Assembly: GCA_943356465.1 (NCBI GenBank)
Contig: CALREX010000001.1
Location: 186,001-250,000, forward strand
Direction of reading: 5' to 3'
Length of the DNA stretch: 64,000 bases
DNA from: Candidatus Peribacteria bacterium
GTDB lineage: Bacteria > Patescibacteriota > Gracilibacteria > UBA1369 > LOWO2-01-FULL-3
Shown: positions 18,302-20,008 of the stretch, one piece after another
How the letters are laid out: each line of letters opens with the position of its first letter
Position numbering within the stretch: the stretch's first letter is position 1
Translations under genes and position numbers: made by a program
The notes under the pieces: generated by a model
Databases searched by the model: none
Seen by the model: only the letters and a program-made list of their open reading frames with translations
What the model was told of the DNA's origin: nothing

Positions 18302-18748
18302 ATGTCACTAAAAGAAACGCTACAACAAGACTTAATGACGGCAATGAAAACGAAAGACGAAGCTTCCCTTTCCGCTATCAGACTGTTAAAAACAGCCATC
18401 ATGAAAGTGGAAACAGCAGGCGAACAAAAAACAGCAACCGATGAAGAAATAATCCAATTAGTCGGCAAAGAAATCAAACAACGCAAAGACTCTATAGAAC
18501 AATTCGAAAAAGGAGGCCGTCCTGAGCTTGCTGAAAAAGAGAAAGCAGAATTAAAAGTTTTAGAAAAATATCTTCCACCACAACTTGGTGAAGACGAAAT
18601 AAAGGCTATAATCAAAGAAGGAATCTCCGCTACTGGCGCTTCATCAAAAGCCGACATAGGCAAACTAATGGGCGCAATCATGCCAAAAACAAAAGGCAAG
18701 GCCGACGGCGGCTTAGTGAATAGATTGGTTCAGGAAGCTCTTTCCTAA
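18302..18748 (+). CDS. yqeY: GatB/YqeY domain protein
   Basis: 148 residues, helical. It matches YqeY, a free-standing relative of the tRNA-binding tail of GatB: SLKETLQQDLMTAMKTKDEASLSAIRLLKTAI at the start, IKQRKDSIEQFEKGGR in the middle, and GKLMGAIMPKTKGKADGG near the end. The exact function is unknown; a role with tRNA amidation is presumed. Its stop overlaps the convergent homocysteine methyltransferase stop. Confidence 0.9.
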   Translation: MSLKETLQQDLMTAMKTKDEASLSAIRLLKTAIMKVETAGEQKTATDEEIIQLVGKEIKQRKDSIEQFEKGGRPELAEKEKAELKVLEKYLPPQLGEDEIKAIIKEGISATGASSKADIGKLMGAIMPKTKGKADGGLVNRLVQEALS

Positions 18749-19668
18749 AAGCTATGCCTCTTCCCTTTCGCCTCTCTCGCAAGCACAGATATGGCTTTCT
18801 GGTCATATCCACAACAACCACCGATCACTCGAATGCTTGGATTTTCACGGATCATTTGTACGAGTTGTTTTGCGGTTCCTTCGTGGTCATGCAAATGCAC
18901 AACTCCCTTCATCTCTTGAAGTTTTCGAGGATCTTCACTAGAAGAATTTGGATAGACCATCAAAATTCTATGTCTCATTCCATTGGCTACGCTAAGCGCT
19001 TTTTCGGCACCTTCGATGGGACAACAATTGATTCCATAGCCCAAAGCATAGCTACCAGTTGCCGCATCAATTTTTTTCAAAACTTCTACCAAAGGCTCAC
19101 CATCAAAAAGTTTTGCCTCTTTATCAATCACAAAACTTGGAATCACAGGAAGTCCTAGTTTTTGCGCAGCCAAAACAGCACCAAGTCCTTCTCTGCCGGT
19201 ACAAATCGTCTCAAAAAGAGCGGTGTCGATTCCGGCCTTTTGCCAAAGATCGCGAGCTACAGCCAATTGTTCAGCATGAAAATCTCTGGCTTCCTCAGGA
19301 GTAGCAGGAGCATCATCAGGATTATAACAATCATTTCCAGCTGGCCCAAAAGCAATAGCAAGGCTTCTTCGCTTTGTTCCTTTCAAAGCTTCACGCACAA
19401 CATCCACATGCGCACCAACGAGCTCTCGGTAAGTTGGCACATCTCCTGCTCTCAAAAGATGTCTAGCACCAAAAGTATTTGTAGTCGCGACTCTTGCCCC
19501 AACTGCCAAATATTGGCGAGCCAGTTGCAAATGTTCATCTCTATATCTTCCACCTTCCAAAATTTTTGTTGAATCATTCAAATCTGGTAATCCAATCTCC
19601 GGACCCAAGCGATCAAATACGCTTCCGTAAGGCCCAAACGACACCTGCGTTTCTAAAAGTCTGCTCAT
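18745..19668 (-). CDS. mmuM: homocysteine S-methyltransferase family protein
   Basis: 307 residues. A zinc-dependent TIM barrel that methylates homocysteine to methionine. The zinc cysteines appear as INCC (215-216) and GGCCGY (285-286), and TTNTFGA is near residue 63. S-methylmethionine, S-adenosylmethionine or another donor is possible; the symbol is by family resemblance. Its DNA looks more GC-rich and uses more G/C-ending codons than neighbours, a possible sign of transfer (not computed). It is preceded by a Met-rich leader peptide and a strong terminator, so it is probably controlled by attenuation in response to methionyl-tRNA. Confidence 0.85.
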   Translation of the reverse strand: MSRLLETQVSFGPYGSVFDRLGPEIGLPDLNDSTKILEGGRYRDEHLQLARQYLAVGARVATTNTFGARHLLRAGDVPTYRELVGAHVDVVREALKGTKRRSLAIAFGPAGNDCYNPDDAPATPEEARDFHAEQLAVARDLWQKAGIDTALFETICTGREGLGAVLAAQKLGLPVIPSFVIDKEAKLFDGEPLVEVLKKIDAATGSYALGYGINCCPIEGAEKALSVANGMRHRILMVYPNSSSEDPRKLQEMKGVVHLHDHEGTAKQLVQMIRENPSIRVIGGCCGYDQKAISVLAREAKGKRHSF

Positions 19669-19685
19669 GTTTTTAAAAAATTAAA

Positions 19686-19716
19686 TAATAAAAAAACTCC
19701 GCAACCTGTGCGGAGT
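19686..19716 (-). terminator. attenuator terminator ahead of the homocysteine methyltransferase gene
   Basis: Read on the minus strand: stem ACTCCGCA (19716-19709), 5-nt loop, TGCGGAGT (19703-19696), then seven T. It sits 17 nt after the leader-peptide stop and 27 nt before the ATG at 19668. The last seven bases of the 5' arm can also pair with TGCGGAG (19760-19754) inside the leader-peptide gene, which would be the antiterminator. Confidence 0.85.
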
Positions 19717-19733
19717 GAAATGTTGAAATTCTT

Positions 19734-19787
19734 TTACATACAACACATCAGCCTCCGCATAGTACGCATCATCATCGCCATCATCAT
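19734..19787 (-). CDS. Met-rich leader peptide (17 residues)
   Basis: ATG at 19787 opens MMMAMMMRTMRRLMCCM followed by TAA. Nine of 17 codons are Met and two are Cys, which matches the product of the next gene, a methionine-forming enzyme. The codons ATG CGG AG (19760-19754) repeat the 3' arm of the downstream terminator. Stalling at the first Met codons would leave this stretch free to pair with the terminator 5' arm, whereas completing the peptide would let the terminator form. There is no clear Shine-Dalgarno sequence. The assignment rests on composition, position and base pairing. Confidence 0.72.
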   Translation of the reverse strand: MMMAMMMRTMRRLMCCM

Positions 19788-19819
19788 TTGTGTAGATTGA
19801 TACATGTTTGTAAATTTTA

Positions 19820-19838
19820 TGGTGGGCAGGGAGGGATT
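19820..19838 (-). repeat. 19-bp duplicate of the tRNA-Tyr 3' end
   Basis: The plus-strand sequence TGGTGGGCAGGGAGGGATT is identical at 19820-19838 and at 19922-19940, the 3' end of tRNA-Tyr including CCA. On the minus strand the extra copy ends a small structure (GAGGGAT ... ATCCCTC enclosing ACCGC/GCGGT) that resembles a T-arm. It may be a remnant of integration at the tRNA or of a tandem duplication. It lies upstream of the leader peptide. Confidence 0.7.
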
Positions 19839-19921
19839 TACCGCTCCGCGGTATAAACTTCTCATCCCTCGCTATCATAAGTTGTAAATCATCACTGCCT
19901 TCGGCAGAGCTGCTTCACAAC

Positions 19922-20008
19922 TGGTGGGCAGGGAGGGATTCGAACCCCCGTAGGCGTGAAGCCAGCAGATTTACAGTCTGCCCCATTTGACCACTCTGGT
20001 ACCTACCC
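19922..20008 (-). tRNA. tRNA-Tyr (GTA)
   Basis: 87 nt including encoded CCA. Acceptor GGGTAGG pairs with CCTGCCC with one G-T pair, the anticodon loop is CTGTAAA with GTA, a long variable arm is present as expected for bacterial tRNA-Tyr, and the T-loop is TTCGAAT. A long imperfect hairpin (about 19879-19919) follows the 3' end. Confidence 0.95.

Follow-up and report, generated by a model that had tools for sequence, protein, structure and literature searches.

A short, Met-rich open reading frame (ORF) followed by an intrinsic terminator precedes the gene of a homocysteine S-methyltransferase family protein (HMT) in a Candidatus Peribacteria genome, and comparison with related genomes makes it highly probable, in our estimation, that the two form a ribosome-mediated transcription attenuator responding to charged elongator Met-tRNA. 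As predicted from its sequence, the element corresponds to the definition of such an attenuator: it combines tandem cognate codons, a terminator ahead of the first gene, an antiterminator that competes for the terminator 5' arm, and downstream genes whose predicted products yield Met. The window referred to below is the whole stretch of DNA analyzed, 64,000 nucleotides (nt) of contig CALREX010000001.1.

The Met leader and its terminator in the window

The leader ORF (MYQSTQMMMAMMMRTMRRLMCCM, stop codon included) occupies positions 19734..19805 of the minus strand, with its ATG at 19805 and its stop codon ending at 19734; Met accounts for 10 of its 23 codons, and it is conserved in relatives. 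The initial annotation had described a 17-codon peptide with nine Met codons; these counts are right for the codons from 19787 onward, which form the 3' part of the 23-codon, 10-Met ORF, so that the extent had to be revised. All of the elements that it had reported are present, and to these we add the strand, minus, which it had not given. In the genus of the window, the leader frame is open for 20 codons further upstream (MRSL..IKFTN-MYQST.., 19734-19865, minus strand), across a duplicated tRNA end described below; this extension is probably a by-product, and the leader of the window could be longer than 23 codons.

The gene downstream (18745..19668, minus strand) encodes an HMT of 307 amino acids (PF02574, E=7.8e-35), the sole copy in the genome. 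Since metK is also present, Met is needed for S-adenosylmethionine (SAM) as well as for protein. In CPR bacteria, including a Peregrinibacterium, a Met S-methyltransferase gene (mmtN) adjoins HMT and MetRS genes (PMC9135737); such neighborhoods are a plausible source of S-methylmethionine for the HMT of the window, and they fit the S-methylmethionine/Met cycle as the regulated pathway.

The terminator consists of a 5' arm (ACTCCGCA, 19709..19716), which is common to the terminator and the antiterminator, a CAGGT loop, a 3' arm (TGCGGAGT, 19696..19703), and a U-tract (TTTTTT, 19690..19695), all on the minus strand; the hairpin (19716..19696) has 8 bp, 5 of them G-C. The spacing originally reported was borne out, with 17 nt from the leader stop codon to the hairpin and 27 nt from the end of the hairpin to the HMT ATG at 19668. 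Equally, TGCGGAG is found both in the leader (19753..19759, minus strand) and in the terminator 3' arm, and is complementary to the 5' arm, with which it forms the core of the predicted antiterminator. Duplex prediction extends this pairing to a leader stretch at 19740..19763, comprising the core plus GATGTGTTGT, the latter pairing with TCAACATTTC (19717..19726, minus strand), a second antiterminator segment immediately 5' of the terminator. The duplex between the leader and the 5' arm is predicted at -22.4 kcal/mol, a value reached by none of 1,000 synonymous recodings that followed the codon usage of the genome and by none of 500 that were matched for GC3, and only 3 of 200 shuffles of the 117-nt leader RNA fold as well as or better than the RNA itself. 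The pairing between leader and terminator in the window is not due to chance. A generic terminator repeat was ruled out, the hairpin sequence being unique: a scan of the genome itself (1.08 Mb) found CTCCGC-N3..8-GCGGAG at a single place.

A putative -10 box (TAAAAT, 19814..19819, minus strand) lies 8 nt before the leader ATG. At most loci the -10 box is found 6 to 10 nt before an ATG or GTG, with 9 to 11 of 12 promoter positions matching; relatives from other genera have a TTGACW -35 box, again with 9 to 11 of 12 matches, and the genus of the window keeps TAAAAT at 8 nt but has no good -35 box there. Such short distances from -10 box to start codon point to an mRNA that is probably leaderless at most loci. 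Further upstream lies a tRNA-Tyr gene (19925-20008), and between it and the leader (19820-19925, minus strand) the 3' end of this tRNA (TCCCTCCCTGCCCACCA) is duplicated within a predicted two-hairpin structure. Three genomes of the genus share the structure (besides the window, at L008:1312-1412 and L010:2734-2842), with three two-sided pair changes, and the duplicated end tracks each genome's own tRNA sequence; the duplication may be relevant to production of the leader transcript in this genus.

Conservation, covariation, and target genes

Relatives were located at the family, order, and class levels by the HMT protein alone, which avoids selection for Met-rich ORFs. Among the 353 genomes of the class, a homologue was recovered at E<=1e-25 from 18, and in 13 of these (G000, G027, G013, G014, G016, G068, G074, G075, G078, G083, G084, G223, and G351) an ORF with a Met run and a terminator stand directly upstream of the HMT gene. 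G236 (locus L044) has the Met ORF and terminator before HMT, but the antiterminator was not found, and it was excluded from the support. Upstream of HMT, neither leader nor terminator was found in G001, G012, G042, and G295, and no leader in G370; the HMTs of G012, G042, G295, and G370 are of another type. The flanks vary (tRNA-Tyr/yqeY, comEC/yqeY, a tRNA, a PiT-type transporter, mutS, and uracil-DNA glycosylase, names mostly assigned by eye from translations), which indicates that the leader and terminator move together with the HMT gene as a block. Directly behind leader and HMT, G223 has metA, encoding homoserine O-succinyltransferase (PF04204, E=3.4e-123), and in G015 the comEC..yqeY locus has another gene in place of HMT behind leader and terminator. 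In G025, of the same genus as the window, a deletion (L008:1430-1590) took the terminator and nearly all of HMT and joined the 3' end of the leader, which survives as a relic, to the last 28 HMT codons.

Searches with a leader profile brought in further loci and a second target family. In G072 and G285 the element precedes a SAM hydroxide adenosyltransferase gene (PF01887, E=1.1e-9 and 2.6e-26, respectively), and in G015, G086, G088, G248, G249, G257, and G352 it precedes members of one divergent family that align over SDTYGG..NAAPR..DxFGN (genes at L028:379-1407, L074:431-1417, L076:1642-2568, L079:443-1420, L081:1655-2563, and L082:412-1416). Three of these seven match the C-terminal SAM_HAT domain PF20257 (best E value, 5.8e-5, just under the Pfam cutoff), most of the divergent members have no Pfam match, and a profile of the family against the PDB returned only SAM hydrolase and MJ1651, at an E value of 1.4 that is too weak by itself. 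The family, which also stands behind the Met leader, is likely a new branch among the SAM hydroxide adenosyltransferases. G240, G280, and G398 have look-alikes downstream, judged by eye only; G398 belongs to a different class, so that the element is spread over the class and was found in a single genome beyond it. SAM hydroxide adenosyltransferases convert SAM to Met and adenosine; thus, Met would be a product of both target families, unrelated as they are. Going by profile matches (HMT, PF02574; metA, PF04204; SAM_HAT, PF01887/PF20257), the downstream genes are predicted to yield the very amino acid that would be sensed.

Some loci stand apart. In G286, G301, G308, and G309 (L078, L083, L084, and L086), all four from a single different family within the class, the element precedes ORFs of 72 to 99 amino acids (MVNLLPF...). 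No leader ORF was found in G246, and no clear terminator in G275 (L089). Weak profile matches in G049, G073, G072:C70, G018, G084:C1, G087, G096, and G047 were rejected as fragments of long genes or as having no terminator. The first match in G086 (L031, MNFFRAQQTHMMMHHM before an IS-like ORF) did no better than recoded controls; the sound locus in this genome is a different one, L081. An IUPAC pattern (ATGATGNNNATGATG..CG) run over the 353 genomes was far too noisy.

Across 18 aligned leaders the Met codons follow the consensus MMMxMMM, extended as MMMxMMMxxxR[R/G], with little conservation of the peptide N and C termini between families. At nearly all loci a hairpin with a U-tract lies between the leader ORF and the first gene, 17 to 32 nt past the stop codon. 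The predicted antiterminator, which shares the terminator 5' arm and would exclude the terminator, is conserved by covariation. In 24 nonredundant loci, from which close pairs had been removed, duplexes of leaders with their own terminator arms are more stable (mean, -21.6 kcal/mol) than those with arms swapped in from other loci (-16.0 kcal/mol), and the observed energy sum was reached in 0 of 200,000 permutations that ignore phylogeny; the test was also run on 20 loci and on 11 loci (p=4.5e-5 for the 11). In 22 loci that could be placed in register, the six core positions are paired in 22 of 22, and the pairing over positions 4 to 8 was matched by 0 of 100,000 shuffles, which likewise ignore phylogeny and here include close pairs. 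Position 5 is G-C in 6 loci, A-U in 15, and G-U in 1, and position 6 is A-U in 10, G-C in 10, and G-U in 2; the two-sided changes between G-C and A-U at two adjacent positions can be read from the window (GCGGAG/CTCCGC), G015 (GCGAAGG/CCTTCGC), and G248 (GCGAGG/CCTCGC), and the same changes recur in both HMT and SAM_HAT loci. G351, outside the register, still pairs (CCAGCcAAGTGGTGG/CCATCACTTCGCTGG), and in G352, inside it, the helix extends to a perfect 14 bp. GC3-matched synonymous recodings gave a duplex as strong in at most 5% of trials for 15 of 25 loci; L009, L045, L047, L074, L076, L081, and L082 fall within 95% of such recodings, and L015 and L044 have no clear antiterminator and fail the antiterminator tests. 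The leader-terminator pairing is thus kept with compensatory changes. The initial annotation had held that its reading would fall if Met codons and alternative pairing were not conserved in close relatives; both are conserved, at about 25 independent loci ahead of genes whose products are predicted to yield Met. Its picture is supported, but it lacked the longer ORF, the probably leaderless layout, the SAM hydroxide adenosyltransferase targets, the taxonomic spread, and the contrast between the leader of the window, which has no 1:2 arm, and the several relatives for which one is predicted.

A proposed switch and its alternatives

The sequences themselves show the anatomy of the element, its conservation, the covariation, and the association with the target genes; transcription start, ribosome stalling, termination, and Met-tRNA as the ligand are what we infer. 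RNA polymerase would make a probably leaderless leader mRNA, on which a 70S ribosome would start at or near the 5' end. When Met-tRNA is ample, the ribosome would cross MMMxMMM to the stop codon and cover the GCGGAG region, so that the terminator could form and the gene would be off; when Met-tRNA is short, it would stall in the Met run and leave the downstream GCGGAG arm, which starts about 3 codons past the MMMxMMM block, free. The free arm would then pair with the terminator 5' arm as an antiterminator, allowing transcription to read on into HMT, HMT-metA, or the SAM hydroxide adenosyltransferase gene, the product of which would make or recover Met. Several points count against the model: the four loci ahead of small ORFs, the poor -35 region in the genus of the window, the loci at which pairing is unclear or does not exceed that of recoded controls, and two loci, given below, that favor the terminator even with a stalled ribosome. 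A severe lack of Met would, moreover, be expected to restrict initiator fMet-tRNA.

The two states were modeled by masking a stalled ribosome (12 nt beyond the A-site at the first Met pair) or a ribosome at the stop codon. Antiterminator formation upon stalling, as originally envisaged, was predicted at 9 of the 11 loci folded, and masking at the stop codon gave the terminator at all 11, with a probability of just 0.35 to 0.65 in two. For the window, the model gave a probability of 0.97 for the antiterminator in the stalled state and of 0.97 for the terminator at the stop. At L013 and L028 the terminator is favored at equilibrium even when the ribosome is stalled, and kinetic folding would therefore be needed there. 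Without a ribosome, the leader of the window folds into the antiterminator (0.94), and L005, L009, L010, L016, L018, and L028 fold into a 5' structure (1:2 arm) plus the terminator; full-length folds of the window, L014, and L045 contain no 1:2 protector structure.

An identical RNA anatomy would serve an attenuator that depends on the ribosome but senses nascent-peptide arrest (by SAM, an antibiotic, or formylation state) or the general translation rate, and leaderless initiation is itself sensitive to ribosome state. We nevertheless consider this unlikely, as the peptide varies everywhere but in its Met codons and in the pairing arm, unlike typical arrest peptides, and the predicted target enzymes yield Met, in agreement with the codons.

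Slightly less probable still is a functional Met-rich small protein, for example, a metal- or oxidant-binding one, with an ordinary terminator of its own and upstream of HMT by chance. Such a protein could account for the conservation of the Met run as an amino acid motif and for an ORF that outlives the terminator and the gene in G025, but there a single deletion took out both the terminator and most of the gene. The peptide termini are hardly conserved across families, the R[R/G] codons show covariation with the terminator at the nucleotide level and beat synonymous recodings in the 15 of 25 loci given above, and the unit accompanies Met/SAM enzymes into different neighborhoods. Hardly any weight belongs to the idea that the leader is a SAM riboswitch or a T-box and the small ORF incidental: S-box and T-box elements control Met genes in other bacteria (as cited in PMC1262725), but the ORF takes up most of each short leader here and leaves no room for an aptamer, and Rfam 15 returned no SAM aptamer or T-box in the window leader or eight related loci, its only match at the window locus being the upstream tRNA.

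Known systems and implications

The Met-tRNA-responsive attenuator proposed here shares with the trp, his, phe, thr, and leu/ilv attenuators a leader ORF rich in the cognate codon, competing antiterminator and intrinsic terminator structures, and a biosynthetic gene downstream, with folds of several relatives also suggesting a 1:2 arm; it differs from them in the Met codon, the probably mostly leaderless mRNA, the predicted Met-recycling targets, and its occurrence in Patescibacteria. In mycobacteria, polycysteine short ORFs (PMC9031893, citing Canestrari et al. 2020; PMC4633059) are leaderless, as the Met leader probably is, and likewise contain repeated codons for the sulfur-containing amino acid that the downstream genes provide; they involve cysteine and are described as controlling translation of those genes, whereas the terminator and the covarying antiterminator argue for transcription attenuation here. 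The ilvB-II motif/ilvBNC leader of Corynebacterium (PMC10272879) is similar as a conserved, uORF-dependent attenuation system found comparatively, and differs in responding to branched-chain amino acids, in belonging to Actinobacteria, and in its RNA; that paper also cites a leader peptide made without a ribosome binding site. S-box and SAM-II riboswitches and Met T-boxes also control Met genes at the RNA level, but there the RNA itself binds the metabolite or tRNA with no leader translation, and they were not detected here.

A 2005 survey of Actinobacteria found no attenuators for Met (PMC1262725), and no report of a Met-type attenuator came up in a search confined to the open-access literature, or in Rfam 15. 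Provisionally, then, Met seems to be absent from the set of amino acids that leader-peptide attenuation is known to sense, possibly on account of the Met codon with which every ORF begins. With less assurance than for the switch itself, we lean toward the broader view that Patescibacteria run a Met/SAM regulon by Met-tRNA attenuators that are leaderless and coupled to translation and that precede unrelated Met-yielding enzymes, in the role that SAM riboswitches, Met T-boxes, or MetJ have elsewhere.

A conserved Met-type switch would mean that the supply of elongator Met-tRNA can be read by leader attenuation, and the Met leader would tie the divergent SDTYGG...NAAPR proteins to Met recovery from SAM. 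The switch would add to the small number of regulatory circuits open to testing in uncultured CPR bacteria, and it would imply that a shortage of Met is sensed by these reduced, host-dependent cells.
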